Assembly: GCF_000003605.2 (NCBI RefSeq)
Contig: NW_003108579.1
Coordinates: forward strand, 783,362-843,146
DNA: 59,785 nucleotides
Origin: Saccoglossus kowalevskii
Taxonomy: Eukaryota > Hemichordata > Enteropneusta > Harrimaniidae
Reading direction: 5' to 3'
Under the pieces are notes generated by a model. The model searched no databases and was not told the DNA's origin. It saw only the letters and a program-made list of their open reading frames with translations. A program made the translations under genes and the position numbers. Each line of letters begins with the position of its first letter. Within the stretch, counting starts at the first letter, position 1. Positions 11,121-59,785 of the stretch are shown here, piece by piece.

Positions 11121-14100
11121 GGGATTGTGTTTAGAGGATTACAGGAAAGCTAGAGAGCGGGCATACATTCACCAACTGAAGTCAAGGATAATGTAGATAA
11201 TTGATAGAAAATAAACACCTACCCACAATACATTATATATAGGAAAAATGTTATATTCACCTTATTTTTTCTACATTGGATTTGTCAGCATTTGCCTTGA
11301 GAGACATAAATGCGCGTATGACCATGGCAAATACAACACAATTAGCCTGAATAAAAAAAATATTAATTTAAGTATTTTGTGAATGTTGAACGTTAGTAAT
11401 GTAATTCTTAACAAGGTGTGCTATTATATATGATTGGGTTTTATTTAAAATTCGTATCAATAATTGTGTGTACGTACCACAAGTACCAATAATACTGGAG
11501 CCACAAACGCCCATATCAATCCATCTTCAGTACTCAGCCAACATTTCGCATCTCTGGTAATATAAGCATATAAGAGTGTTGTCGAGTTTCAGTACTTTGA
11601 CGTTGTATTGTTCATCTGCATTAAGTTCATTACATTGTATCGTATATAGTATCGTGTCGTATTGTGTCGTATTACATTGTTATGTAAGTGTCTCTCCTAA
11701 TATTGATGAACGCAGATAAATCCAATGGTAAATGTAATGTAATGAAATGGAATATTTACTTACATGGGTCCCTCGCCGTAATTATTGAATCGGACCGCTA
11801 CAGATACGCCAACAATTACAAAGGGGATTCCTAAGACAAATTAGAGAAATGAAAAATCAGAGTTGTTGAATCATTATTGCGACATTGGTTATTGCATTTA
11901 AGTAATTTATACATTTTCAATTCATTGGGGCATCGCATGTTTTTCAATTATTTATAAGTTTCACTGTATATCAGTTTGTGCCAACACCATTACACTAATA
12001 ATGTTTTGGGTTTAACTCACCCCAGCCAATAGCCATGTATATCCTAGTCTGCACTCCCTTTCCAATGGCACCGGATGATTTGACATATAAGTTGATGCCT
12101 TCCACAAGCATCCAGCAGAACATTGCCAAGAAGAAATAGTGCAACATTATGGCCACAGACTTGCACAGACCCTGGTGGTAAATATAGTGATATTGTGATT
12201 AAGCACAGCTTTGTGTGTAACACCATTTTTGTGTTGTCGTGAATCTTGAAGTAGATCACTTGCGATTGTCACTTGTTACTTTGGTCCGTGTACGTCGCGT
12301 CGAGAAATCAGCCATTTTGTTCAACCCAGTTAGCACCGTATCCCGTTACAATAACAAATGTGGATGATCAGTATAGATACTGATTTGAATGGTAAATATG
12401 AATTAGATTATACCGCACACCCGACGCCAGCAAAGGGAGAACATTGAACGACACCACTGATGTTTTAATAACAAAGCCTTGTTCAAATACGTCATTTGGA
12501 ATCTGAGAACTTCTAGGTTTTACGACAACCTGATGGTTTTGTGACACTTTCAAAATTATATCCAACTGACATATTTAGCATTCTCTTTTATTTGAACTTT
12601 TAGAATAAAGTATTAATTAATTCCAGCACTGAAACAGTAACGTTAGTCTTAGGAGTATTACGTAAAATATGTTTCACAACCCATTTCTTTTAATGAATGA
12701 TACATCATACTTTGTAAACGCACTAATTATTCAGTGGTTTTTGCTGATTGGTAAAATATGCTAAATTAAATATAGGTTAACATGTAAAATAACAATAGAA
12801 CTAATTGTTTTTCTGCCAAGTTTGTGTAACTGATAACCAGTAAAATGGCTCAAACCACCGAAATAGTTAAATTAAATGCCAGTGAAAATGACTTGGTAAA
12901 GAAATCTCCTTTACAAATTGAAAAAAAAACTTTCTTGGTTCCATTTGCTCTTCGATGCGTTGAGGTGATAAAGTAAACGCGTTGTGAATACTCAGCCGAA
13001 GATTTGATTCGTAATACATATAGACTTGTTCATAGCGACTATAATTATTGTAGAAGTCTGTAATTACCTCACTGAATTCAGCCAATCCACTCAGTAGAAA
13101 CAGCGTCTGTGCTATCAGTAGAGCAACCGCAAAATTCATATGTATAACGACACGCTGAGATCTGTGAAGTCTGAAACAAGAAAATACATGGGTATTATTT
13201 TAATCCATGAATTCTCCTCGAATGATTTCTTCTTCTAACTCCAGAATGCCCGGGATTTTGCACACAAGTACACGTTTCGTCCATATTATTGGTGGGAGTA
13301 TAATGCAGTAAATGGCCAAGGTAGTTTGAAAGGCTAGCGCTGTTCACTGTATATAATACATTATTCGTTCAGTGTTGAAAATGTTGTTGAATTTGCTTGA
13401 AATATCAATCTTTTGTTTGATAGAGTATAAAATATAATGGTAATTTTGAGACTCCTTTTTAACTTATCTGATATAAATATATTTAACCTTTTAGAATGAT
13501 TTAAAATCTGCGTGATCGAAAATAACATCTTTAATTCATACATTTGAAATACAGGCTGCGATGATAATTAATTAGCTGTATTAACAAGCCTGAAAGCAAG
13601 AAAAGGGATTGTCGCACAGGTACGCAACTCTTGGCGAATATTTATATTGCATTTGGGTATCTGCGCCAATAATGCGTTTTGGCATCATGATCTGATATAT
13701 GTTACGTAGGAGTGTGTTCAACTTACTTTAATGTGACAAAGAGAAACAGCGATGCACACAGAGCAAATATCGAGAGACCAACTCCCCCATACGTCAGGTA
13801 TGTCATAATTTTCGCATCTTTCTCGGATATCTGAAATACAATGATAGGACATTTGTTTGTCACATGTTCACGTCCGTTTCCACGCATAACGCGGGATCCC
13901 GCAGTTTGGTCATCTGAACATGATGTAAAAATATTCAGTAGAGTGCAAATATGAAGAATCCTTTTAATTGTGATTAGCACTGTAATTCGAATCTTACAAA
14001 CTTCATGAAAATTACACTCTGGGGATATTCTATAGACATATGTGAACACAGAGTTCGATGTGATAATGATAATTACGACTATAATGTAGTATTTTTGTTT

Positions 14101-17100
14101 CTTATAACACATGAAGAATATCTACTGATGAACTTGTTATTTCCTCCAATGTCAGATTTTAATTTTTGCTAAATTCCAGGGTTAGGTGATATAATTTCAC
14201 TGTTTGTGGGAATGCGCGTGAAAAACAAATCCAAACAATTGTTGGCGTCTGTAATCTGTAATCAGTCGTTGTGTCTTGCATATTTTATATTTCCCCCAAA
14301 TGAAATACGTAACTGTTCAAACCTATATATGACGAGTATTATCAGTATTCTCACCACTATGTCCGTGATTCTCATTAATGCCGCAAAACTAGTCATGTGA
14401 TTGCAGAGACACGTGATCTTTACGTTAGATGTTGCCTCGATCGATTTCCAACAGCCTTCAGTAGACCAGCCAGGTTCTTCGTCCGGGCTACAATTATAAC
14501 AACACGATAATGTTTGAATACATTTTCTCTCATACATAATGTATATATGTAATCTCCTGTATGAATGCCTTCAATGTCTGCATATATACATACATATGTA
14601 TGTGTATGCGTGTTTCTTTGTGATTATAAGAAATGTATCACTAAACATTGTTTAGTCTGTTTGTTCTATATAATTGCACGTATATCTACTAAACGGCAGA
14701 TGCTGGTATATGATTAGTTCACAAAATATATAGTATTCATTTGTTTCAACAATGTGCCAGACAAATGCATATGCTCCCGAATCAGAATTACGTATCAAAA
14801 AATTGAAAACGCACTTGCATTCCATTACACATTCACTAGTTCACTTGGCAATAGTTCATACTATATACAATATTGCACGAAGATATAACGAATATTCAAT
14901 GTTGTTCATATTCGCTTTTTGAATAATGTATCAATGATCAATAGACGCGATATTTATACCTCTTCCGAGGATTTTTACGTCACTTGTTGTTATCGTTATT
15001 CAAACTTACCTGACTTCTGTTTTCCGGAAGACACATACAGGTTCTTCCTTCTCTACGTCATACTGGGAAATGAATAAATTATAGTGAAATAGAGCGCTCG
15101 GATATGTAAATCAAACTTCATAACTAACCCCATGTCTCGTTAAATTATATACATACTGTAGTGTAGTTTACGTGATACTTGATACTAGATTACGTCATCA
15201 GCTGGGAGGCTCGTTCCCGGTTCGTACACTCTCGGAATCGAACCAAACGACTGCACTTTTCATATGCCGTGGAACTAAACAGTTACCTGCCAAGTGGGTA
15301 TATATTCTGGGAATACTTTTTGTGATCATGGTGGATTATGACGGATTCGATGCAGTACTTTGAGCAAACATGTCAGGTGACGACGTTCTACTTCTCTGAG
15401 TCATAACCGAGAATGCAGACCTCAAGACATCGAATATATGTAACTAACGCTATAGCATCCATATCACGCAACCTGTCTCAATATATGACGTAATCACTCC
15501 TAATGCGTGATTAAACCCGTCTTATGACTTAACTCTGTGGATAGACTCCATACACAGTCCCTGGATAGAGGGACTGTGCTCCATAGTTATGTACGTGAAA
15601 AACAAATATTACTGGCATACCGTTTGTACTTCCAGTGTGAACGACATGGCAGCGACGTCTGATAACAGGATCGGACTGCCGTCGGTGTGGTACGCAGCAC
15701 TAATCGATACAATAGTCGTACCATATGACTTATAATTATGACCTTCAACACTTGCCAAGTTCAAGATTGTTGTCATCGTATCGTAACTGGTGACGGTCAC
15801 GTCCACTGCAATGAAAACGTGACAAGACTTGTGTTTGAAAGAGTATTTTTAAGTGGGTTGTTTACAAGCAGTCTGTTGTGGTTTGAATATTTAAATTAAA
15901 CAGATACCGGTTGAGACTGGTTCTATCTATGTGGACATAATGTATGGGTACAATTCCTTTCATAGGATACTCGTTCATTTGACCCAGTACGATCCAGTAT
16001 GAACCAGTATTTTCGAATCTGTTATTGGTCGCGTGGTGTTATGACGTGGCAAGACATGATGCCATGAAACGACATTTTGCATGTCCACATATTTTCTCGC
16101 CGGAACAGATAAGAATTCATTGTCGCAATTGTCGTATTTTTTACATGAAACAGTTAGAAACATGAATTGATATTTATTATAAGTAGGCGAGTTTTGCATA
16201 TGGAAATACATATACCGGTAAACTGAGAATAGAAAGTGTAAACAAACATTTTCTGGAAGTATGTAAAAAGATCTCACAGCGAATTTCAAATTATCAAACC
16301 ATACAGCGGGAATCAATTCAGCGCAACAATTATTTGGCGTGTGTTATGTGTTAAAAAATACAAACGATGTCACTATCCAGTAGTCGAACTGAACAGATTT
16401 GTGGGTGGAGTGTGAGGGTGGGGATGAGGTGTGAGGTAGCACTATATAATGTACATGGTATAAATTTTAAAAGCGCCTCACCGTCACCCTCGTTTAATAC
16501 GCTCGCAGGCAGCGTGACAGTTCCTTCCGTTCCGTATGTGAATACGGCTCCATCTTCTTTCGACACCACTTTTGCATAAAAACCTGCGAATTAAAGTGCA
16601 TGCATTAATGCAGCTGCCACTCCATACAACAATATGGATCTCGTGTATAATAAAAATTAATCGGACGTCACTGTCGAAATTACGTAAAGAAGCCTCATAT
16701 TAGTGGAAATAACCCAAATGTAGCATCACATCAAACCCTGTGCAGATATAGTACGCGTGGTTCGATTGTGTTATATAAACTTTGTCGTTCTCCAGGTTGT
16801 GTTCACACAATTTGTATAAAGTGACTTGATTATTTTAGGGATTTACTTACAAATTTGTGGCCTCATGGATATACATTTGAAGGAGTATTTATTTTAGTTA
16901 TTACAAAAAGACAAGCTTCGAACTAGAATGAACCAATATAGTGATTTGATGACGTACTTGAACAGAAATCTCATTGGCACTAAAACCTGCATATGGTAAG
17001 CTCAGTAGACTTGTATATGTTGCTAAAGTACATGGTAGTACAAATACGTTCGTATATGAAATACAAATCTGTGATGACAACATGGTTCGGTTTTAAAATA

Positions 17101-20100
17101 AGGTGATCACGTTACTGGCACGTACCTTAAAATACAACAAGCACAAGTGTTTAACTAACCTATATGTGTCTTCTCAAATGCCACTTCAGAAGTATATTGC
17201 AGAAAAGTTGACGACACTGATACCGCATAATCCTCCATACCATTGAGGAATAAAGCAGCTAACTCTGGCTGCTCCTGAAATGGATTGCGAGAGTCGCATA
17301 ACATTGAATCAATGTTACTTTAGTAGCATAACAATATCCGCCGTCTTGTACACCTAACTTTGCAGTCGTTTAAAAAGTATTATTAGTGTTGAACAAAAAT
17401 ATCTATAAGTTCAAGCGACAACTTACTTCAATAGCTTGTACCAGTGCCGGCACGTTTGAAGAGCTGACCAATTCATTTGCTACATCAAAAAAGTTCTGAA
17501 ACAAAACAATTGTGCCAAATGTTATTATTTAATGTACGGATCTGTGTGATTCTATCGAGAGATTAAGGAATACGACGACACAATCAATCGTCGCTCTTTG
17601 CATCACTGCATAGTTATGTCATATGGCACACTTATTGCCTGATTGTGTTTTCGGAATTCCGAGGAGTTGGACATATTTTGAAACATAAGAAAAATTTTAA
17701 TTCTGGTAATAATTAAATCATCTAGTGTAAAATTTTCACATGAAAAAAATGTATACCCGTAAACAAAATGGCTATAAACCTGCTATATTTGAAGATGGGG
17801 AAAGATACTACACACGGCAGTAAACACGTGCTTCCATATTGAATTTCAATAAACTGCGTAGGGATAAACAGGATAATATCCTAACAAAATCAACGACTGG
17901 GATATGAACACAAAGCACAATTCATGCTTACTTCAGCTTCCAAAGCGTTATCGGTATAATGACTAGAAAGGAAAACCATTGCTTGAAAAATTCGTTCAAC
18001 ATCTGACTGACCCATCGTTCCCGAACCCGCGATGTCCGAGATAGCTTGCAGAGCCAAATCAGCTTCAGTGGTACTCACGGCGCCACCATTGACGATAACG
18101 TTGTCTATTGCACCCTGTGTAAATATAATAAATATATTGTTATCGAACACAGATATAACTATTGCGTTCATGGTCATTATATTTACCGATTTTACTAGTA
18201 TTGTCGAGGTGGTGGAGAGTTATGTAAGTTCAGCATCCAGTATGAAAATGGGTCAGAGTCCGATGATTACACTAATCCCTCACTGGTCGACTCCTACCCT
18301 GGGTGTGTGTGCTACAGACTCTACGGGAAGGCATATTCCACTGGCTGAGATTCATTCACTAACGAATGCGACTTTAGGAGAACCTTGGTTAAGGTTCGCA
18401 GGTGCTTGTGTTCGACCGCGGCAGGTTGACGCCAGGATAGCGCATTAAACTATCATTTGATAGAGAGATGGCCGCACAGCTCTGTCATGTAGTCCCAAAA
18501 CATGAATATGGCTTCTGTGGCAAAAATGAACTATATGTCAGCACTTGCAACTTGCACATACAATAACAAGTCAGACGAGACAACAGAGACATTCAATGTC
18601 CTCAGCATGACCAACTAAATTACCAAATTACAACGGAAAACGTTAGAAGATTCACATACAATAATCCGTTTAGTGATGAGGGAAACAGTTTGTGATAAGT
18701 ACTACCATGACCGATAAGTGTAAATATTGGAATAGTTAATGCAGTTGTTGCCGACGACGGCGTTTACCGCGTCATACCTGCAGTAGATCCCGCCTGTAGA
18801 GGGCGTGGATTGCTGGTATTAGCGACTCGGATGAGTATGGGGGAGTGAATACTTACGTTTGCGGGTCCAGTTCCTTGCAGTGCAGCAGTAGTTGGTGTCG
18901 ACGCTGTTGATGTAGAGACAGTCTGAGAACAAATTAGTGTCATTGAGTCAGTTAAGTAATTGGGTCGATGAAATGAACAATTTATGACACATGGAAGAGG
19001 AAATATTTACGACATTTAGCATGTAAATTTGACCCACAACGCGACAGCAAATGTCGTACATTTTGATGCGAATACACTCAATTATTAAAATATTTATCCA
19101 GTGCCCGGGAGGGGGCAGTCGTTTAAGTACACATAATCCGTTCTTCTGTGGAAAGAAACTGCTTGAACGGAATGACGCATTGCATACTATTTTTCTGCGA
19201 TAACCAACTACATTAAGCCACCTTATAATCGTCTCATTTGCATAAATCAATATCGTCTTTTCAGTAAAATTGTGCTAAAATGCTTTTCGATAGCATACAT
19301 GATAGTTCTAAATTGACTGATTCTATCGTCACGAGCTGAACAAATATACCTAAATACTGATGTAAAGGTGTTTTTGAGACACGGTTTTGATCAGACTCCA
19401 GCAAACTGTTGAAAGTAAAGGTTTTTTTCTTTACCCTGATCATAGCAAGTTACGAAATTCATGGAGAGTGCAAAGACACGTTTATATTTCACTCTAGTAC
19501 TAATGCTTAAAATTGCTCAAAATGTTTTCAGTGATTTTTGTATGCATTTCGAGAAACCACCTCGTGTGTGTATGCGCAGTTTGAACGCAATAAAATCACG
19601 CGTAGAACTCGGACTCCAGCAAGATATTGTGGCGTCAAAATGGTTGTCGGTTGAATTGTATTGCAATATACATAATTTTAGAGCCTGAATTTTTTTGCGA
19701 GATGTTTTTTTAAGGATTATTCTGTAAATTATATTATAGCATTATCAATACCAGTGGATTTTATGACGTCATTGTAGCAGATTATTCGCGATAATGTATT
19801 ACATTATTGAGCATCAAGGCCCTGTCCCTTGTATATGATTACAATCTTGATTTTGAAAACGAATAAAGAAGAAACTATTGAAAAAGAGAAATTGTTAGAT
19901 AACAAGTATTTAATACCAAAATCGACATCAAATAAAATGGTCCATAACCAATAACAGCGGATTTCAATATCGAAATCAGACAATATTTTGAAGGCATCGT
20001 CGTCTGAACTGTACGCTAACGCGCGTTCGGTCGGTCGAAACGTTCCATCTAGTACGCGCGCTTCTAGATTCCGCGACTGATGCCGCTGTCCTGGTGGCCT

Positions 20101-23100
20101 CCTGATTAGTTTGTCCTGTCGTGTTGATGAAGTGAGGTTAACCGAGGATAATTTATCCAAGCAAATGCAAACGAAATGGGGGTACAATGTATGTCTACGA
20201 GTACAGAGAGATGTATTTGTTCTGTGTTTGTACTACAAAATTTGCTGAACGAGATCGACGAAAGACTGACGTGACTTGTATTTTCTCGGCGTCGACTTCC
20301 GGTAAATGTAACAGTACGGGCACAGTTTGCATAAATAAATGAAAGTATCCGTGTTCTCATGTGTGTATCTGTTTATTTTATACAGTGTGATTAAAATCAC
20401 TGTTGGTTCTCCTTCAAGGATGGCTAACACCCACTAGCTTTCCGGTCATGTTCGTTCGCCCGCTACGCTACGTTTGGCTTAAAAGTATTCGTCAACTCGT
20501 CGCCCTCCCGTGGAATTTAAAATAACTATTACGCAGAAAGGACAGTTTCCAATAATATCTACCTTGATTGTTTGAAAACACTAGTGGGATGGGGTAACGG
20601 AGCAACTAGGTACATGTACCCCGGGTACTCATCCCTACCCACAGTCGATCCAGCTGGACCACGGCGGCGATCTAGCGTAGTGTAGTGCAAGCCGTGGTGG
20701 ATACCGATACGGCGTACCAGTCACGGCGTGACGTTCGCTCGAGCGATCACTGTAATGCTACTCCACACCACACATCAGTCACTCATTCACTCGCAATGTA
20801 AATGGGTTAAATACAATAAATATTTGATGGATTAAAACTAGTTTCTTTCTTAGTTTGCCATATCAGATTGTGGAAACAATTTCCAGAAAGACATTTTAAA
20901 TTATTCAGATTTACGGGCCAGTGACATTGAAACTATTCCGTTCACTGTAGATTTTTCTCCAATTTTTTCCGCTTTTTTAGAGACAGCAAATCCACTGGTA
21001 ATGACAACGCTACAAAATAAAAACAATAATGAACTCCCCGACAACCTATAATGGACTCAAGCACACTTTGTGCTCCGTATATGTACTCGACTCACGCCTC
21101 GTACATATATGTCGCACAAAGTGAGCTTTCGCCCATTATGGGTTGGCGGGTCGTACATTATTGTTTAATTAATCCTCGGGGCGGACATCCGGGCATTTTC
21201 ACCGCCTGGCAACCCTAACGGTGAAAACAAAGGCCCACACTCACAGAAAACGGTACTTTGGAATGATTGTTGAGACTCCTCTGAACAGTGTAACAAGATT
21301 AGCCCAACGTGTGTAACATATATAAATTTGGTTGTTCAGGATTACTTCAAAGTTGAGTTTGTGTTGTTTTCTCGAATTTTCACCGGCTCGACCGGCGTTC
21401 CACAGCAGCGCGCACAGAGCCCATAGAAATGCATGGTACAGTGGTGCGCGCGGTAGCAACGTGGAACGTCTTGTGACGTAGCTCCGCCCCCGAGAGACTG
21501 GGAATCGAAACGATTTGCTATTAAATAACAATCATGGATGACCCGCCAACCATAGACATGAGCGGCGTTAATGATTTTTCGCTGTCATCATCACTGAGAT
21601 CTACATAATTATACACAATGCTTGAGACGTATTCATTTAATTAACGTTTTGTTACGTAAATACGGAAATAATAATAATAAAAATACGAGTAAAATGAATA
21701 CAGGTAACTCTGAGTTTCAACCATCCATTTTTTCCTATACTTTTTTTTTGCAAAAATTAGTTGCATGATCACTTTTTTAATGCTTAATTGTTGTCACTGA
21801 AGTAATCACACTGACTTGTGGAGCACGTATTGTGCCTATAATAGAGAGTTTAAGATTTGCGTACGTAACGGGAACGTAACGTGATGTTCTAATTTCGTTT
21901 GCGTTACGTTCTCGGGTGTCAGAAAAACGATTAAGTACAAGCGCCCACAACGGGAACGTAACTGAAACCAGAACCATGTCAATCCGTCTCTCATTGGGCA
22001 ACAATAACTACCTAAATTAATTTGTTATGTCATTTCACGTCCGGAATCAGAATTAGTAGTTAGTTCACAGACATTTTGACAGAGCTCTCACTATTTCCAT
22101 CCACTCTGCTGAGGTCCTAGGCCTGTTTGCCGAATCCTCTTTCAGCAGATCAATATCATGCGTTTTCAGTGNNNNNNNNNNNNNNNNNNNNNNNNNNNNN
22201 NNNNNNNNNNNNNNNNNNNNNTCATTATATTACGTAATTATTATGACAAAACTAGCCGAACTCGCAAATAAATCCAAGAGATGCATCACGGTCATAATCA
22301 TACCAAGCCCATGAACCCATTAAAGATGTTTGATTCATCACCATGGAAACGTAATTAGCCTCCATCTCAAATGGATTTGGTTCGCCATCGTCCCATCTGT
22401 TGTATGTCATTATCTCTCCGGGCGGTGTGCCGTTATCTAGATTTTAACCCCAGACAACAATGATTTACAGTCATTAAAACGTTGTTAATATTACGACTGG
22501 AATGTGTAATATATGCTCAATGAAATACATGTGTATTGGCTATTAGAGAGTTTAAGATTTGCGTACGTAACGGGAACGTAACGTGATGTTCTAATTTCGT
22601 TTGCGTTACGTTCTCGGGTGTCAGAAAACGATTAAGTACAAGCGCCCACAACGGGAACGTAACTGAAACCAGAACCATGTCAATCCGTCTCTCATTGGGC
22701 AACAATAACTACCTAAATTAATTTGTTATGTCATTTCACGTCCGGAATCAGAATTAGTAGTTAGTTCACAGACATTTTGACAGAGCTCTCACTATTTCCA
22801 TCCACTCTGCTGAGGTCCTAGGCCTGTTTGCCGAATCCTCTTTCAGCAGATCAATATCATGCGTTTTCAGTGGGTATAAATGTCAGCTAAAATGCATCCA
22901 ATATTTCTTATTTCATCATAAATATTCAAAAACACTCTAATATAAAACGTTTTATTAATGTCAATGAAAATTATTCAAAATTGACAGCGAGAAAAGCTCT
23001 CGGAAATCAACTACGAGTCAGTCACCTTGATCACGTTCAAAACGACTGCCGAACGACCAGGCAACCGATGACGTCATTGGTTCGCGCGGAGGTCATGCAC

Positions 23101-24257
23101 AAAGCAGTGACGTATCCGTTCTCGTTCCGTTCTCGTATGCGCATCTTAATGTCTCTACTACCTCCGTCCATCAGAAAACCACGCGTGCGATTCGATGTCT
23201 CGATGACGCCCTGAAAACTCAATCGGTCATCTTGCGGGTACCTTAATAAATCATTCCGTCTTTCATGTAGAACTACATTAGTTTTGAATTTGGGGTAAAC
23301 GCTATGAATTGTGGGTAAATACATAAAAAAAATCGAAATATAATAAAGAAAATATTTCGAATAAAAATGAACTCACCGTTGCGGAGTTTGTCGTTATGGC
23401 GCCCGCTGTCGTTGGAGTGACGTCATTTTTCTCACAAATCCACCCTCTTTGTAAAGTACATTGGATACCCATCCACTTTCCCATTTCAGGTGTCACATCG
23501 AATATGCCAATATTCTGCACGTCGCTACTGGAATACGTCTTTGCTCCACAGACAGGGGTAGATAACGTATTCACATCAAATCCACTTACCCATTCAGCGG
23601 AGTAGACAAGCTCGTCGTTGTTATCGTACATCCAGTTGGAGACAGCCTGCGAAGAAAAGTAAACAAACTATGATCACATTCTACACCTGTTCGGCATGTG
23701 CCAAAGATTTGTCTTAGTCGCCACGTAAACTATGTGGAAGCTGATTTTAATACGTTTTTCCTATAAGTTGCGCCCTCTTGCGACGAAGCGCGAGTATAAT
23801 GACAAGGAACTGCGAAATATCCTACGCATGTAGAGACACTAATCTCAATTGTGAACGTGGGAGGGCGGTATACAAGAAATACTTTATAATTACAATTTAC
23901 GTGTGCTACAACATGAATGTGTGCAAGAGTGCTCCAGAAATGTACAAATAACGTTAACCACTGTGATGAAAAGCAAAAACCTACATCATCGTATTTCAAG
24001 TCTATCCAGTAACTATCGGCCGCACTGAGACTGTTCAGCAGTATGTCTATATCGGAGTCTTTGCTGGCGTCCGAGATTTTTACAAGCAGTGCGCCCTCGC
24101 CGGAACAATTCGTCACTGCGGCAGCGTAATGAAGTTGATTTCCCTGCGTCGAGACCAAATAACAAAGTCCATTTAACGATTCCCATCCAGACTCACACGC
24201 GTGGGAACATGTGGGCTGTAGAAGAAGAAAAACAAACACTAATAAAATCAATTTCAT
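9036..24257 (-). CDS. C-type lectin adhesion G-protein-coupled receptor (multi-exon)
   Basis: Exons in transcript order: 24215-23985, 23646-23377, 18922-18857, 18114-17932, 17495-17427, 17274-17160, 16583-16482, 15805-15621, 15062-15010, 14487-14355, 13830-13727, 13170-13068, 12171-12021, 11830-11764, 11553-11478, 11346-11261, 10840-10732, 10326-10285, 9577-9448 (or 9444), 9078-9053 (or 9036). Every junction is GT...AG with matching phase. With the distal signal-peptide exon the model is about 781 aa; with the local start at 24257 it is about one residue shorter. Domains: signal peptide 1-20, C-type lectin domain about 21-165, Thr/Ser-rich stalk to about 205, GAIN about 205-470, GPS with cleavage predicted between M471 and T472, seven-helix domain about 490-735, short cytoplasmic tail. 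Known for the family: GAIN autoproteolysis and a tethered agonist. Inferred: plasma-membrane receptor that recognises a ligand through the lectin domain. No hormone-receptor motif, EGF, Ig or cadherin domain is seen. A vertebrate orthologue cannot be named. Confidence 0.85.
10285..13830 (-). CDS. Receptor exons: seven-transmembrane domain
   Basis: Eight exons (13830-13727, 13170-13068, 12171-12021, 11830-11764, 11553-11478, 11346-11261, 10840-10732, 10326-10285) join in phase. TM1 includes GVGLSIFALCASLFLFVTL. TM2 is IHMNFAVALLIAQTLFLLSG. TM3 has the class-B2 signature CKSVAIMLHYFFLAMFCWML followed by VEGINLY. TM4 starts MAIGWGIPFVIVGV. The second extracellular loop has AKCW, so the TM3-loop disulphide is available. 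TM5 has WAFVAPVLLVLVANCVVFAM. TM6 is LRAALVLLPLLGLTWLIGIV. TM7 includes GVFFFVLHCIMNDE. The P-L-L-G-L-T-W and L-H-Y-F-F-L-A motifs place it firmly in the adhesion family. No inactivating change is visible. Confidence 0.93.
10408..10490 (-). repeat. SINE-like 3' end with an (AAT)n tail
   Basis: On the minus strand a segment containing GGCCGGTGGCCATATAGTGC runs into GGAATAAAGAAAGAAT and then a pure (AAT)n run at 10432-10408. A short conserved-looking body ending in a simple trinucleotide tail is the form of a retroposon 3' end. It lies in the intron between the last two TM-coding exons and the tail exon. Family not known to me. Confidence 0.45.
11086..11117. repeat. (TA)n microsatellite
   Basis: About 16 uninterrupted AT/TA dinucleotides in a receptor intron, likely polymorphic. 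Confidence 0.95.
14355..15062 (-). CDS. Receptor exons: GPS motif and tethered agonist
   Basis: Two exons, 15062-15010 and 14487-14355, join in phase 2. The first gives YDVEKEEPVCVFRKTEV, the second SPDEEPGWSTEGCWKSIEAT and then ITCLCNHMTSFAALMRITDI. The four GPS cysteines (VCVF, EGCW, TCLC), the W before GC and the C-x-C-N-H-M/T motif are all present. The residue before the cleavage site is Met rather than the more usual Leu, and the nucleophile Thr is kept, so cleavage is expected. The new N-terminus TSFAALM is the probable tethered agonist. Confidence 0.92.
15172..15300 (-). repeat. Possible tRNA-derived SINE fragment
   Basis: The minus strand carries GGTTCGATTCC (15246-15236), a perfect RNA polymerase III B box, with an A-box-like TAGTTCCACGG about 40 bp upstream. 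No cloverleaf with acceptor stem could be drawn, so it is not called a tRNA gene. It lies in the receptor intron upstream of the exon at 15062. Confidence 0.3.
15621..15805 (-). CDS. Receptor exon: GAIN subdomain B core
   Basis: Acceptor TCATTGCAG, donor GTATGC, phase 1 to phase 0. It encodes VDVTVTSYDTMTTILNLASV and later GTTIVSISAAY and SDVAAMSFTLEVQT. The last part corresponds to the strand that precedes the GPS in GAIN domains, where relatives often read V.I.F. Confidence 0.8.
16482..16583 (-). CDS. Receptor exon: GAIN subdomain B strand segment
   Basis: Acceptor TTCGCAG, donor GTGAGG, phase 1 to phase 1. The encoded FYAKVVSKEDGAVFTYGTEG followed by TVTLPASVLNEGD is typical of the region where adhesion receptors show I.LP...L. 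Confidence 0.8.
17160..17274 (-). CDS. Receptor exon: GAIN domain continuation
   Basis: Acceptor ATTTCAG and donor GTTAGT, with entry phase 0 and exit phase 1. It encodes EQPELAALFLNGMEDYAVSV and then a stretch ending VAFEKTHIG with the split codon. MEDYA fits the helix in which relatives read LE.LA, after which the beta-sandwich of subdomain B starts. Confidence 0.8.
17427..17495 (-). CDS. Receptor exon: GAIN subdomain A helix
   Basis: Twenty-three codons, NFFDVANELVSSSNVPALVQ then AIE, between TTTGTTTCAG and GTAAGT. The N-x-x-D-x-x-N-x-L-V pattern is typical of the helical GAIN segment in which many adhesion GPCRs read NLL. Confidence 0.8.
17932..18114 (-). CDS. Receptor exon: start of the GAIN domain
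   Basis: Acceptor TTACACAG, donor GTAAGC, phase 0, 61 codons. It starts GAIDNVIVNGGAVSTTEADL and contains QAISDIAGSG and VERIFQAMVFLSSHY. The alternating hydrophobic helices fit GAIN subdomain A of adhesion receptors. Confidence 0.8.
18347..18466 (+). repeat. Dispersed repeat, copy 1
   Basis: This segment aligns over about 120 bp with 27974-28094: both start GAGATTC.TTCACTAACG and share TTGGTTAAG, a TCGACCG core, GTTGAC and ACTA...TCAT. TTGGTTAAGG resembles a Pol III A box and TGTTCGACC a weak B box, so an old tRNA-related SINE is possible. Confidence 0.5.
18857..18922 (-). CDS. Receptor exon: Thr/Ser-rich stalk
   Basis: Twenty-two codons in phase 0 between TTCTCAG and GTAAGT: TVSTSTASTPTTAALQGTGP then AN. 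It is a short mucin-like spacer between lectin and GAIN domains and extends the Thr-rich end of the previous exon. Introns on either side are in phase 0, so the exon could be skipped without a frameshift. Confidence 0.8.
20430..20790. other. CpG-rich intronic block
   Basis: CpG density here is clearly above the surrounding AT-rich intron, with clusters such as CACGGCGGCGATC and GATACGGCGTACC and a palindromic GCTCGAGC. No coding exon fits the receptor frame. It may be an inserted element or an internal promoter; there is no further sign of either. Confidence 0.3.
21020..21166. repeat. Foldback MITE, near-perfect 147-bp palindrome
   Basis: The left arm starts AAACAATAATGAAC and includes CACTTTGTGC and TATATGTAC. 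The right arm is its reverse complement, ending GTACATTATTGTTT, with only scattered mismatches over about 65 bp per arm and a loop of about 14 bp around 21090-21101. It is in the large receptor intron. Confidence 0.85.
21137..21556. mobile_element. Composite element sharing the foldback terminus
   Basis: The right arm of the neighbouring palindrome (TTGGCGGGTC...ATTATTG, 21143-21164) recurs inverted at 21529-21554 as CAATCATGGATGACCCGCCA followed by ACCAT. The 420 bp between these ends are CpG-rich (GTGACGTAGCTCCGCCCCCG around 21473-21492) and non-repetitive. The layout looks like a longer relative of the MITE, or two nested insertions. Confidence 0.5.
21843..22171. repeat. Direct repeat copy A, left of the N gap
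   Basis: This 329-bp segment, starting AGAGAGTTTAAG and ending CGTTTTCAGTG, matches 22545-22872 base for base except for one extra A in a run of five. It abuts the 50-N gap. Each copy contains two AACGGGAACGTAAC motifs and an inverted CGTTACGTT. Confidence 0.95.
22172..22221. other. Assembly gap (50 N)
   Basis: Fifty consecutive N. The gap lies just beyond the stop of the orphan lectin exon and between two nearly identical direct repeats, so local order and copy number are unreliable. Confidence 0.99.
22252..22436 (-). CDS. Orphan C-type lectin half-domain exon with EPN motif and its own stop
   Basis: The acceptor ...AATCTAG ends at 22437. The frame GTPPGEIMTYNRWDDGEPNP continues to SWAWYDYDRDASLGFICEFG and a TAG stop at 22254-22252. 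MTYNRWDDGEPN and FICE match the second half of a C-type lectin domain and include EPN, the mannose-type calcium/sugar motif, unlike the receptor's own second half. Two of the usual cysteines are missing (EDC appears as EAN, and there is none before FICE). It enters in phase 1, which only the second, 4-bp-downstream donor of the 24215 exon could supply. It may be an alternative terminal exon giving a secreted lectin, or the tail of a neighbouring lectin gene brought here by misassembly. The N gap begins 30 bp past the stop. Confidence 0.55.
22545..22872. repeat. Direct repeat copy B, right of the orphan lectin exon
   Basis: This second copy of the 21843-22171 segment is 328 bp and differs by one indel. 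Its minus strand includes an open stretch with THDIDLLKEDSANRPRTSAE followed by WMEIVRALSKCL and a stop; the same stretch is in copy A. Near identity next to a gap suggests two haplotypes placed in tandem, though a recent tandem duplication is possible. Confidence 0.95.
23037..23222 (-). other. CpG-rich open segment with CRE sites in the lectin intron
   Basis: After TTTTCAG at about 23212 the minus strand is open for about 58 codons (GVIETSNRTRGFLMDGGSRD ... VVRQSF) to a TGA. It has high CpG and includes a perfect TGACGTCA at 23068-23075. It does not fit the lectin fold. It could be a cryptic or alternative exon, or a regulatory block. Confidence 0.25.
23377..23646 (-). CDS. Receptor exon: C-terminal half of the C-type lectin domain plus start of the stalk
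   Basis: The acceptor TTCTTCGCAG and the donor GTGAGT frame 90 codons in phase 0. The exon starts AVSNWMYDNNDELVYSAEW, contains PVC and GKWMGIQC, and closes the domain with RGWICEKN. These supply core cysteines 2, 3 and 4 at the usual spacing. After the domain come DVTPTTAGAITTNSAT, Thr-rich and likely O-glycosylated. Neither EPN nor QPD is present, and WND is replaced by KWMG, so calcium-dependent sugar binding of the classic kind is not expected; the ligand may be protein, or bound in another way. Confidence 0.85.
23985..24257 (-). CDS. Receptor exon: N-terminal half of the C-type lectin domain, with an in-frame local start
   Basis: The certain part is 24215-23985: PTCSHACESGWESLNGLCYL, then AAAVTNC, and near the end a WIDL motif, the counterpart of the canonical WIGL. 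HAC and GLC match the extra cysteine pair of long-form C-type lectin domains, and TNC matches the first core cysteine. Immediately upstream and in frame is an ATG at 24257 whose 14 codons (M-K-L-I-L-L-V-F-V-F-L-L-L-Q) read as a signal peptide. The same bases form a perfect polypyrimidine tract and CAG acceptor, so they may be intron. The exon ends at GAT-GAT before GTAGGT, with a second donor 4 bp further on at GTAG/GTTTTT. Confidence 0.8.
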
Positions 24258-24534
24258 AGCCTATAAATGTTCAAAGAAGCGATGTTGATTATAGTTAGTT
24301 AATCAAGAAAGCAGTTGAACCATATATCAGTCATTTATTTACACACATTTTCATCCACTTATGAATAAATGCTAAGCCAACCTGCAGTAAAATCAATTTA
24401 TTTTTCTTAGATTCCTGTAAAAAACTTGTTTGCACTTTTTAGTATGAGCTTGTCTGCAAAGAAATTCATCCGTGTTATGCCATGGGCATAGTGTCTATGG
24501 CATTTCCTCTCGTACAAACAGCTGTTGTATTCGT

Positions 24535-24665
24535 GAATCGTAATTCACGTGCGTACATATAATACAGTGTGTAGTTCGAGGCGCGCGTGATAGCTGCCGG
24601 ATTTCCCAATGACGTCATCATCACGATGAATTGCTCACGCGAGGCGCGTGGCTGCCGTCTCGTTC
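24535..24665 (-). promoter_or_regulatory. Candidate promoter of the receptor's local start
   Basis: A small CpG-rich island about 300-400 bp upstream of the ATG at 24257. It contains GGCGCGCGTG, a second GAGGCGCGTGG and a TGACGTCATCA cAMP-response-like element at 24610-24620. The flanks are AT-rich. Its place just upstream of the local ATG supports transcription starting here, though this is inference only. Confidence 0.35.
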
Positions 24666-27600
24666 ATACAAACAAATGAACCAAAACAAATTCATTTTTT
24701 TTCATGATTTCGCGGTGTTTGTAATCAGATATTTACCCGTTGTGCAGTTAGTGATGCAAAAGATGTATATTTAAAGGAATTTAGTAATTATTGTACGACT
24801 TGACTAGGAACGAGGTGGAATATTGTTTGACGTGTTTAAGCAGTAAATGCCACTCGATACAACAACGGCATTTGGTCTTAGGTGCATTATTTTTAAAGAA
24901 CTAACGATAATAGCCCCAATAAATAGCAATGAATTAAGTGAACCACGGTAAGACGTTTCATTGAGTTACTAGTATGGCCGTGTTTTTTTTAAACAAAGAG
25001 ACTTCGTGATATTCAATTTATTGGTAATTATATTCAAAAGTAATATTGTGTTTCCCTTGCAATGTGACGAATAGTAAATGTGAGGAATTCTGAGTAGTAC
25101 TATAAAACAGTCTAATGACAGATTACCAGTTAATGTACTTTCTTTTATTAATACTCATGGTCATGGATTTCCGCAAATTCCCATTGATGTTATCACATAC
25201 TTGTTTGCACGATCACGGCGATCGGTCAACTATCAAAGAAAAACACATAATCACAGAGTAGGCTTAGGTTGTTTTTCAACTGTTTTCAAAGACAGGGGAC
25301 CCTTTTTAACTCCATAACGAAAGTACCTCAAAACAATCAATCATTGAGAATTATACCACGTATAGCTTATTATCAGATACAAGTAAGCCGTCTAGTGTTT
25401 CTATTTGTAATTTAAGATGATGTATTTTGTGCTCAGCTAATAAACTAGCCTCCAGGCAGGACTGAATATTATAAACATCACGATATTTTCAAAATTACTA
25501 TATGCCAAATATGCATTTATAAGTGAACATAAAAATAGATAGATCGCGTCATTAATACATAAACTGTATTGCTTTTTCGCCAGTGGAACCACTTTTCATT
25601 ATTACTTAAAAACGCAATACGCGTACTATGCGTGTCATACTAGTTTTACTGCAGAAATTGGATGAATAGATTTCACTTAGAAAACTAATACATGTCGTGA
25701 GGAAAAATAAACACCCCGCTGAAATATGTAATGTGACCGTGGATTTATCTGACATGGTTCTATTTTACGTTTTTTTTTAAGAAGGGGAGCTTGCTCTAAA
25801 GGTTGAAATTTTGAAAGTCGCATGGGCAACACGTATGTTAGATTTCTTGAGGGCTTAGCAATTTCTTCTCTATAGTTATATAACGACCATATACCTATAT
25901 ACCTATACCATATACCTTAATCTTGGCCTTTGGTTCATAAATGTAGCATGGTTCATGTAGTTATATTGTATAGTATAAAAATACTTGACCTTTATCCTTG
26001 ATATTTTGTTTCTAAAATTGTTATGTCTTGACTAATTTCCCAGGTATACTCCCCTGTAGATGAATACTGAACATACTTGCATACATATTATGACCTTGAC
26101 CTTTAATCTTTCGTCCCGAAAACGCGACCCTCTATCGCGAGTTGCGCAGGGAGAACGTTTGCCAAGTATGCAGTCCCTAGTTATTTTTCTCCAAACTTAC
26201 ATAAACTATGACCTTACTAAATAAACGAATCATAACTGTAGTTCATAAATTCTGAATAAAAAGATATACATGCTACACACAGAAAGATGAACTCACGAAA
26301 ATCGCAATTTTAGAGCGATTTACCATTGTCTCAAGGATTACAAGATCTCATGAAAAAACAATGTGTTTTGAGATTGTTACTCGTTTAATAATGATCATGG
26401 ATTCCTTTTTCAGATAGCTCTTCTACAAAAAATATGTTGTACTCGATAAAAAACAAACTAAGAGTTGTTGACGTATATTTCAATTAATTACTAGACGCTC
26501 TTAAAACACAACAAAAGAAAGGCAATTGCTTAGGTACAATGTATATAATAGCGGCAGAATGTTGCGGATAACATTTCAACTATTGTTTTTACATTAATAT
26601 ATACGTGTAGTGTACATAAATGTGTTCCATTCAGGCGGTAGTCTTTGATATTCCAAAGTAATTCCAATAATGAGCTCATTACGTTTTGTTAGTCGATGAA
26701 CGTTTAAATCATCATTTTCTTTGTTCGTGTGTAAAGTATTTTTTATTACGCTCATATTCAAACTCGCTCCCAGTGCAGAAGATTAATGACAGTGAGTTGA
26801 ATGAATATGACAGATTCGTACACACGAACCGAACGTTGCATTTGAGTATGAGTATAGTCCCAGTAATTGCAATGCCTATGGTGTCAGATGAATCAAGAAA
26901 TACACAATTTCTCAACACAAAATGGTGTGCCACGTGATTGTGCCCAGACGCTTACGTTTATGCTCGTTCGTCTATTGAGTGTTCCCTTGAGTAAACAAAA
27001 CACACATGCGCCTTGCCATAGCAAGCAAACACGCCCCATATACAATCATATATCAGTTGGCACACCAGTCTGGTTTTGAACGTTAAACAAGCCGAACCCG
27101 GCGATAGCACCGCGGATAACATATGACACATGAAATCGACACTTAATCCAATATGGTGCGGAGAGTCTTTCATTTTTTATACTAAAGTATTGAATCGCAC
27201 TTATTTTTAACAACACCACATCTATCAACATTATGACAAATGAACAGCAACTATTTTGATGCATTCAAACGACGATACTACAAGTTCAAATAGAAGTCAT
27301 CTCACAGGTCATGAACTCAATAAAATGGAATTAAATACAATACGTGGCATCATAAATATTCACCACAGATTACAGATTAAATGTACACTTCAAATTACAG
27401 GTTTGTGTAAAATGAATCCCTGAATCATATATGAATTTTAATTTCGTGCTTGTCAAATTTTCGAAATAACATTATATGACTATGATACCGTTCACCGATT
27501 TGAACATTGTGTAGTCGATCATACAAGATCTGATCATACAAACGTCTGATAAAAATGTTGCATTTTTACCATAGAAACAATGCATCTATACGCGGACCTA

Positions 27601-45195: not shown

Positions 45196-45690
45196 TTAAT
45201 TGATATGACGATATGACGATATTACATGACACGATATGACGATATTACACAATACGACATGACACGATATGGTAATATTACAAGATATGACGATATTACA
45301 CGACATGACATGATACAAAAAGACGATATTACACAATATGATATGATACAATATGGCAATATTACACGAAATGACGATATTACACAATATGACATGACAA
45401 GATATGGTAATATTACACGATATGACGGTATTACACAATATGACATGACACGATATGGTAATATTACAAGATATGACGATATTACACGACATGACATGAC
45501 ACAAAATGACGATATTACAGGATATGACATACCACGATAATGATGATATGACGTGTCAATATGACGATCTTACACGATGTGGCATACATGGCACGATATG
45601 ATTATTTTACGAGATGTGATATTACACGACGATACCTTACACGATATGAAGGTATTACATGATGTCACATGCGCGTAATAATCAGATAGA
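45196..45690. repeat. Satellite of GATATTACA/GATATGAC units with 51-bp higher-order period
   Basis: Short units such as GACGATATTACAC and ATGACATGACACG alternate. Read on the plus strand the array translates as repeats of Y-D-D-I-T-Q-Y-D-M-T-R-Y-G-N-I-T-R (51 bp) with two shortened 36-bp variants. Plus frame 45226-45540 and two minus frames are open for over 100 codons, as expected for units that are multiples of three without stop codons. No start context or signal suggests real coding. Confidence 0.85.
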
Positions 45691-47182: not shown

Positions 47183-47227
47183 CTGATTTAAAACCAGAAT
47201 CAGAAAGACAGCGGAGATCCACAGCAT
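47183..47227 (-). CDS. Isolated signal-peptide exon, possible distal first exon of the receptor
   Basis: On the minus strand an ATG at 47227 (context AACATGC, A at -3) starts M-L-W-I-S-A-V-F-L-I-L-V-L-N-Q, followed directly by the donor GTTAGT. It ends in phase 0. The first lectin exon at 24215 has a good acceptor in phase 0 and starts P-T-C-S-H-A-C, so the fusion would give a conventional signal peptide cleaved after SHA. No other minus-strand exon with a phase-0 acceptor was recognised between 24.3 and 47 kb. The intron would be about 23 kb, long against the other introns of this gene. It could instead be the first exon of an unrelated gene, or chance. Confidence 0.45.
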
Positions 47228-57900: not shown

Positions 57901-58858
57901 AATTGTCTCAGGTGGTAATCTGTCGCTTAGTAGCTTTTTACAGTTATACGGGGATTTACTTGTGGGGATTAATTGCGATCCTAGAAGGGCTGGAGTCTAA
58001 ATAATAATAACGCAAATTACTAACTAGGTGTAAGAATATGTGTACTGGAAAGCATCTAATGTGGTTTGATTGGCACCTTGGTGGGTGTACATTTAAACAC
58101 CGGGCATTAGTATTTTACTCTGATTGGTCGGTATACAACTTGTCTCTGAGTATGTCACACGTCAAATGATTTTTTTTTTAAATAATCTTTGTGTGGTTCC
58201 GATATCTGTTATATTCTAAATGATATCGTTGGGGATATTTTACGCTGTGTATAACCTTCATACAGGATTAAACTATAACAACTATATAAATATAATATAT
58301 ATTAATGAGTAAATGTTTATATTACAACGTATAACATTGTACATTACAGTTTTTATGCTGTATGATTACGAGGATGGCGGAACGACACAACGCAGTTTTG
58401 TTTAGTATTTACCGTATACGTATTTATCAGCTCAGGGCCAGTACATAAACCACGAGCTCTTCAGAACGTCGGATATCAACATTGAGCCACTACTGTATAT
58501 CCTTGTTGCTGTAGGGGTGCTACAAATTGCAATAATCTGTTATCATTATTATTTGAAGATCATCACTCAATTTAAAAATTCTGAGTGACAGCTGAGACGA
58601 TCGTTATTGCGAATGTCTGTTCTTTACATATAAAACACGTTTTGTGCCATTATTTCAACATAGATATAATGTCTAGGGTCAGTAGGAAACGAGATTTGAA
58701 AAAAAAAATCGTGTACAAATCTATGCGATCCATACTACATAATATTTGTTTAAATTGATTGCTGAATTTTATTTGGTTTTTGAAATCCTTATTTACCTAT
58801 TAATATTGTAGTATTGAAGTCCCAACAACCGTGAATTGGCGTATCAGAAATAATGGGA

Positions 58859-59785
58859 CTATAGCCGTAGGCACAATACATATAGATTCAGAGCATGCCG
58901 ATATGATTCTTCCCGTTGAACAAGTAGTAGTTTGTCGTTGCCTTGGGTATTGTTGCCGTAAACAAGTAGGAGTTTGTCGTTGCTCTGGGTATTCTTGCCG
59001 TAAACAAGTAGCAGTTTGTCGTTGATTTGGGTATTGTTGCCGTAAACAAGTAGGAGTTTGTCGTTGGCTTGGGTATTCTTGCTGTAAACAAGTAGCAGTT
59101 TGTCGTTGCTTTGGGTATTGTTGCCGTAAACAAGTAGGAGTTTGTCGTTGCTTTGGGTATTCTTGCCGTAAACAAATAGCAGTTTGTCGTTGCTTTGGGT
59201 ATTGTTTCCATAAACAAGTAGGAGTTTGTCGTTGCTTTGGATATTGTTGCCGTAAACAAGTAGAATTTTGCCGTTGCCTTGGGTATTGTTGTCGTAAACA
59301 AGTAGGAGTTTGTCGTTGCTGTGGGTATTCTTGCCGTAAACAAGTAGGAGTTTGTCGTTGCCTTGGGTATTGTTGCCGTAAACCAGTAGAAGTTTGTCGT
59401 TGCTGTGGGTATTGTTGCCGTAAACAAGTAGGAGTTTGTCGTTGCTGTGGGTATTGTTTCCGTAAACAAGTAGCAGTTTGTCGTTGCTTTGGGTATTGTT
59501 GCCGTAAACAAGTAGGAGTTTGTCGTTGCCTTGGGTATTCATGCCGTAAACAAGTAGTAGTTTGTCGTTGCTTTGGGTATTGTTGCCGTAAACAAGTAGC
59601 AGTTTGTCGTTGCTTTGGGTATTGTTGCCGTAAACAAGTAGCAGTTTGTCATTACTTTGGGCATTGTTGCCGTAAACAAGTAGGATTTTGCCGTTGCCTT
59701 TGGTATTCTTGCCGTAAACAAGTAGCAGTTTGTCGTTGCTTTGGGTATTGTTTCCATAAACAAGTAGGAGTTTGTCGTTGCTTTG
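58859..59785 (-). CDS. Possible repeat-protein reading frame in the minisatellite
   Basis: The minus frame NTQSNDKLLLVYGN is open from the window edge through all units and ends after the array with VQREESYRHALNLYVLCLRL and a stop at about 58859. The exact multiple-of-three period and absence of indels would fit coding, but two minus frames are open at once, no start or splice context can be judged inside the window, and recent expansion explains the same pattern. Confidence 0.15.
   Translation of the reverse strand, partial: QSNDKLLLVYGNNTQSNDKLLLVYGKNTKGNGKILLVYGNNAQSNDKLLLVYGNNTQSNDKLLLVYGNNTQSNDKLLLVYGMNTQGNDKLLLVYGNNTQSNDKLLLVYGNNTHSNDKLLLVYGNNTHSNDKLLLVYGNNTQGNDKLLLVYGKNTHSNDKLLLVYDNNTQGNGKILLVYGNNIQSNDKLLLVYGNNTQSNDKLLFVYGKNTQSNDKLLLVYGNNTQSNDKLLLVYSKNTQANDKLLLVYGNNTQINDKLLLVYGKNTQSNDKLLLVYGNNTQGNDKLLLVQREESYRHALNLYVLCLRL
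58919..59785. repeat. 42-bp minisatellite, at least 20.6 units, runs off the window
   Basis: CAAGTAG recurs every 42 bp exactly from 58921 to 59761 without an indel. Each unit contains AGTTTGTCGTTGC and GGGTATTGTTGCCGTAAA. On the minus strand one frame reads N-T-Q-S-N-D-K-L-L-L-V-Y-G-N per unit and a second reads T-A-T-I-P-K-A-T-T-N-S-Y-L-F; both stay open for over 200 codons. The plus frame (V-G-V-C-R-C-S-G-Y-S-C-R-K-Q) is broken by a TGA near 59023. Units vary at a few fixed positions only. Confidence 0.97.

Follow-up and report, generated by a model that had tools for sequence, protein, structure and literature searches.

We examined a 59,785-nucleotide stretch of the Saccoglossus kowalevskii genome (NCBI RefSeq assembly GCF_000003605.2, contig NW_003108579.1, positions 783,362 to 843,146 of the forward strand; hereafter the window), whose minus strand carries the predicted gene of a receptor with an N-terminal C-type lectin domain. 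The first lectin exon of this gene is directly preceded by 42 bases that can be read either as the tail of an intron or as the codons of a signal peptide. We favor, with a probability of roughly 0.68, the reading in which the signal peptide would come from a distal exon at 47227-47183 while the 42 bases would be an intron tail that resembles a leader by chance; the odds given here to this and to the three competing readings are judgements guided by the rates reported below, not computed posteriors. According to this reading, the core of the signal peptide would be encoded by the small phase-0 exon at 47227-47183, which would be joined to the 24215 acceptor by removal of a first intron of 23 kb, with the cleavage site TCSHA/C supplied by the lectin exon (here and below, a slash marks a splice junction or a cleavage site). 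The 42 bases before 24215 would then be intron, made up of a branch-point area and a polypyrimidine tract rich in T. Codons of T-rich DNA specify Leu, Phe, Val and Ile, and CAG specifies Gln, so that such tails often resemble hydrophobic leaders; a chance in-frame ATG would complete the likeness of this one to a signal peptide. The features on which this reading turns are the following:

47183..47227, minus strand: probable signal-peptide first coding exon, reading MLWISAVFLILVLNQ and ending at a phase-0 donor, CAG/GTTAGT.
24216..24257, minus strand: intron tail and probable mimic, consisting of a polypyrimidine tract and a CTACAG acceptor, with the in-frame reading MKLILLVFVFLLLQ.
23985..24215, minus strand: exon E1, the N-terminal half of the C-type lectin domain, 231 bases long, with the donor GAT/GTAGGT and the likely cleavage site TCSHA/CESGW.

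Rechecking of sequence and frame upheld the double reading of the 42 bases put forward in the original prediction: as codons they give MKLILLVFVFLLLQ, open into PTCSHACESGW, and as DNA they end in CTACAG. Their description as a long pyrimidine tract applies to the stretch nearest the acceptor, where 16 of the 19 bases before the CAG are pyrimidines, but not to the whole, where pyrimidines make up only 27/42; the first half is AT-rich, in the area where a branch point would fall, and only the last ~20 bases form a real pyrimidine tract. Scored against a matrix built on the gene's 12 other acceptors, with positions pooled because a position-specific matrix of 12 sites is sparse, the 24215 acceptor reached 6.3, above 10 of its 12 siblings (0.6-9.2) and a value that 0.30% of the window's 5361 AGs attain. 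At 33 nt upstream of the site stands a branch-point-like TTGAT, followed 8 nt later by one AG. In tract, CAG and branch point the site is comparable to the gene's own acceptors, consistent with its being a 3' splice site, and simulated signal-coding sequence held an acceptor as strong at a phase-0 boundary in 0.31% of cases. The hydropathy values, the branch-point consensus, the residue frequencies of the signal-coding simulation and the -3/-1 rule are general background. Cleavage after TCSHA is one of three candidates by the -3/-1 rule, and both signal readings yield a plausible leader.

The distal exon likewise bore out the proposal that it could restore the same junction: on the minus strand, 47227-47183 reads MLWISAVFLILVLNQ and then GTTAGT, in phase 0, and would join the 24215 acceptor in frame. 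Its donor scores 4.4, within the range of the gene's 13 donors (3.5-7.3). When we listed, for both strands of a 218-kb region around the window, phase-0 exons with a Met, a hydrophobic core and a donor (minimum donor score 3 and, as a loose threshold, minimum hydropathy 2.2), this exon had the strongest core, though not the strongest donor, of 10 candidates, among them E4 and E12, which are internal exons of this gene. Simulation yielded 8 exons as good in 92 Mb, corresponding to 0.019 expected per 218 kb of one strand; the exon is not expected by chance. Its DNA matched only its own place in the genome searched (572 Mb in 4830 contigs, in DNA searches for copies that skip very common words). 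The ATG at 47227 has an A at -3; upstream of it the frame is closed by a stop at 47260, and the closest ATG on that side is at 47363.

A second receptor gene of similar layout, a tandem paralog, lies nearby. Searching with the GPS and seven-transmembrane (7TM) exons revealed it on the same contig and strand, ~105 kb downstream, with 60% identity in the matched 7TM exon. Among 10 open reading frames (ORFs) searched for families in its upstream part, lectin and PAN domains scored over the cut-off and F5/8C-like ones under it, and we infer that these exons belong to one gene. The first recognized extracellular exon of this paralog (C285:706971, phase 0, acceptor score 6.46) is preceded at a distance of 23,629 bases by a phase-0 signal-like exon, MITLFAVALILGSKWT followed by GTAAGT, which also belongs to the 10 candidates above. 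In frame, the tail before the acceptor of that extracellular exon gives ILALYINICIVIVLQ, open for 15 codons and lacking a Met. Thus, the two genes have this layout in common, and in the paralog the tail again reads as hydrophobic but is not a start. Together, the strong pooled score of the 24215 acceptor, a distal exon beyond chance expectation and the layout of the paralog lead us to assign the role of mimic to 24257 and to regard 47227 as the real exon, and so to prefer the first of the two options in the original prediction, namely that one leader is a mimic or that the receptor has two promoters. We infer that the splice from 47183 to 24215 is used and that the start at 24257 is not.

To gauge how ordinary such a tail is, we compared it with simulated and natural acceptors. 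Of simulated phase-0 intron tails, 1.2% read as a Met plus a hydrophobic core at a mean Kyte-Doolittle hydropathy of 2.5. In the sparse matrix 526 AGs of the window equal or exceed the score of 24215, and five of them, counting this site and 47182, give a Met plus core at 2.5. At other lectin exons of the genome, the tail is hydrophobic (8-residue mean at least 2.0) before 11 of 31 acceptors. These controls came from 46 lectin loci (L002-L005, L007, L008 and L043-L082), of which 15 without an acceptor score of at least 2 were set aside; the set leaves out L006, L009, L010 and L011, L009 being the same place as L043, and the 40 stretches L043-L082, some of them near-copies, were hand-picked from 149 matches, among those starting near the profile start. 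The control acceptor was the best-scoring AG in the open frame, a choice that is doubtful in several rows (L005, L007, L044, L075 and L082). Within the gene itself, 4 of 12 sibling acceptors have hydrophobic tails and 5 of 12 tails hold an in-frame Met, which in the tail before 18114 precedes a weaker hydrophobic run. The hydrophobic reading is ordinary for T-rich tails, and the well-placed in-frame ATG is the rare addition; a tail with Met plus core, rare per site, should yet occur somewhere among the many acceptors of a genome.

Several observations weigh against this account. At a hydropathy of 3.5 only 0.11% of simulated tails qualify, so that at any one site such a mimic is improbable; the leader at 24257, with Lys at position 2, comes still closer to the textbook form; and a Met at least 10 codons before the acceptor occurs in none of the 31 control tails. 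The sparse position-specific matrix gives 24215 a score of only -0.2, matched or exceeded by the 526 AGs mentioned above, although the site still beats 4 of its 12 siblings when these are left out one by one (-5.0 to 10.0), and it ranks a neighboring AG at 24261 higher (1.13). The distal exon sits 23 kb away (22,968 bases of the window separate 47183 from the lectin exon), a distance that its predicted splice to 24215 would have to span, and 15 ATGs lie in the 700 nt upstream of it. No homology was detectable between its DNA and that of the paralog's signal-like exon, which share only 9 bases (117 of 500 shuffles scored as high); the two signal exons are not recognizably alike in DNA, and a common origin of the exons themselves is therefore not shown. 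Finally, we found no phase-0 signal exon in the 19.8 kb upstream of a third family member (C4196) or in the 20 kb upstream of a fourth (C1734), either of which may extend further.

The AG at 24261 ends the sequence TTTATAG before GCT-ATG. This sequence, which the original prediction did not mention, makes 24260 a possible in-frame acceptor:

24261..24296, minus strand: candidate upstream tandem acceptor, TTAACTAAC, TTTATAG, ending right before GCT-ATG and lying 45 nt from the 24215 acceptor, in frame.

Both leaders could be real, with a distal promoter serving 47183 plus the lectin exon and a second start (from an intronic promoter, or from a 5' untranslated region (UTR) exon spliced to 24260) giving an MKLILLVF form. 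We consider this unlikely, despite several features consistent with it: the frame is open from 24260 through the lectin exon and the 45 nt keep it; the 24261 AG has CTAAC 35 nt and TTAAC 39 nt upstream with no AG between, the best branch-point-like sequence of 14 acceptor sites; it outscores 24215 in the sparse matrix; and the 24257 ATG has a G at -3. In the genome, 24210-24720 had no match other than itself; within this segment, 24481-24700 is GC- and CpG-rich together, a combination found in 0.34% of 220-base windows and suggestive of a promoter. By the pooled matrix, however, the 24261 AG is weak (0.99, a score that 9.4% of AGs reach); the order of the two acceptors reverses between matrices, and a fine comparison of them is unsafe. 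The GC-rich segment contains the motif TGACGTCA, but with 7 occurrences across the window this motif is no special mark, and the tail of the paralog lacks a Met. The frame of the 24257 ATG is closed upstream by a stop at 24263. An unspliced leader would be confronted with 16 ATGs in the 700 nt upstream; the nearest, at 24323, means that such a leader must start within about 65 bases of the 24257 ATG, whereas a leader spliced to 24260 would escape these nearby ATGs. The proposal of two promoters with interchangeable signals retains an open frame and a suggestive context, is constrained by the ATG at 24323, and is the less favored of the two original options. Were 47183 spliced to 24260 instead, both cores would stand in tandem and could act as a signal anchor. 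More broadly, the intron tail may be used twice, as a polypyrimidine tract in long transcripts and as a translated signal peptide in others, or as 15 residues added via 24260 to the distal leader, turning a cleavable signal into a long double hydrophobic segment; the DNA would then be under selection both for splicing and as a leader. This, too, appears improbable.

It is less probable again that only the start at 24257 is real, fed by a 5' UTR exon or a nearby promoter, with CTACAG a by-product of T-rich leader codons and the exon at 47227 belonging elsewhere. The leader is indeed well formed, with Met-Lys, a hydrophobic core and the TCSHA cleavage site, and simulated leader codons contain an acceptor as strong, in any frame, in 1.25% of cases. 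Nevertheless, this would require two coincidences, the phase-0 acceptor seen in 0.31% of simulations and a distal exon whose expected number is 0.019 in 218 kb of one strand. Moreover, among the minus-strand ORFs of the 24-47 kb interval, 10 candidate owners of the 47227 exon (chosen, not strictly the longest, with two longer ones in a repeat at 45199-45569 excluded) showed no convincing Pfam domain, only one chance-level match below the cut-off, and by eye none of 40 sampled lectin exons runs straight into a full signal peptide, the nearest being L067 (MYVLFIMYL) and L075. That neither leader is real, the true signal exon having a weaker donor, joining in another phase via an intermediate exon or lying beyond the fetched stretch, seems very improbable: the thresholds of the candidate list, confined to phase 0, would miss a less typical exon, but the 47183 exon fits in strand, phase and spacing, as in the paralog.

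The distal exon and the mimic both concern a gene that we placed by eye on the minus strand as 13 exons (E1-E13), from 24215 down to 12021, encoding in order a C-type lectin domain (E1 and E2), a Ser/Thr-rich linker, a GAIN-like region, a GPS and the first part of a family-B2 7TM region. Beyond E1, given above, they are:

23377..23646, minus strand: exon E2, the C-terminal half of the lectin domain, from the exon table and the Lectin_C profile match.
12021..18922, minus strand: exons E3-E13 (11 exons, by eye), the Ser/Thr linker, GAIN-like region, GPS and first 7TM part.

Because each of E1 to E5 has a length divisible by three, the first six exons all start in phase 0 provided that E1 does. 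Joined by eye, as were all exon joins in the typed proteins, E1 and E2 gave a full-length Lectin_C match (41.2 bits, profile positions 2-107 of 107, cut-off 22.6), identifying a C-type lectin domain. The typed chain from E8 to E13 matched GPS (41.5 bits, residues 68-115) and directly after it 7tm_2 (77.5 bits, residues 131-242), the order of an adhesion G-protein-coupled receptor (GPCR); the 7tm_2 match reaches profile position 126 of 250 in the chain ending at E13, and the gene model stops at 12021. No GAIN profile was among the families found in this E8-E13 chain, and the GAIN-like exons were assigned by eye. The gene's chain also resembles solved structures of lectin-domain proteins such as the secretory phospholipase A2 receptor. 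From its predicted domains, the gene would encode an adhesion-GPCR-type receptor with an N-terminal C-type lectin domain. Lectin_C, GPS and 7tm_2 stand here on one strand in the same order as in adhesion GPCRs (Pfam GPS PF01825 and 7tm_2 PF00002) with an N-terminal lectin PF00059. A close copy of the lectin exon, sought for comparison of the tails, was not found in the S. kowalevskii genome, to which the comparison was confined; 10 other matches were returned, the nearest only 31% identical (E 0.0014).

Between E2 and E3, the minus strand also holds at 22436-22252 an intact second C-terminal lectin half (DNGTPPGEIMTYNRWDDGEPNP...FICEFG, followed by a stop), which completes Lectin_C when joined to E1 (31.1 bits). 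We considered a soluble lectin isoform made through this half exon; its donor and acceptor are very weak (-2.7 and -6.4), and it may be either a relic or the mark of a rare soluble isoform. It is flanked by near-identical direct copies at 21839-22171 and 22541-22872 (331 of 332 aligned bases plus one gap), one of which abuts a gap of 50 Ns at 22172-22221; the copies are either a recent duplication or an assembly artefact. At its far end, the window carries a tandem repeat with 42-base spacing (58793-59785, apparently running past the window end), represented by 17 overlapping, in-register copies of a 300-base reference, and related repeat peptides occur in the next stretch near C285:844.7-845.0 kb. 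Outside the window, C285:867181-868395 (minus strand) is an open frame of 405 codons that by eye resembles a rhodopsin-type 7TM receptor.

Two published studies offer comparisons. One, on emerging yeast ORFs from intergenic DNA, describes the transmembrane potential of thymine-rich non-coding sequence (Vakirlis et al., 2020; PMC7005711); as there, T-rich non-coding DNA read in frame gives hydrophobic segments, but the source here is a polypyrimidine tract, in the in-frame reading of a predicted intron tail, and not an intergenic ORF. The other reports that phase 1 introns are over-represented close to where signal peptides are cleaved (Nielsen and Wernersson, 2006; PMC1626468); the intron proposed here would also lie close to a cleavage site, but in phase 0, in the models of both this gene and its paralog. 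In the titles and abstract openings searched we found no description of a signal peptide encoded by a polypyrimidine tract, which is not proof of absence. If the ordinary reading holds, with a distal signal exon and a chance mimic, the locus is a caution for gene prediction: in AT-rich genomes a T-rich acceptor can pass for a signal peptide, and a program choosing the closest Met would overlook the true first exon, which lies at a distance of 23 kb. If instead the tail were used both in splicing and as a leader, it would represent a direct route from intron sequence to secretion signal.

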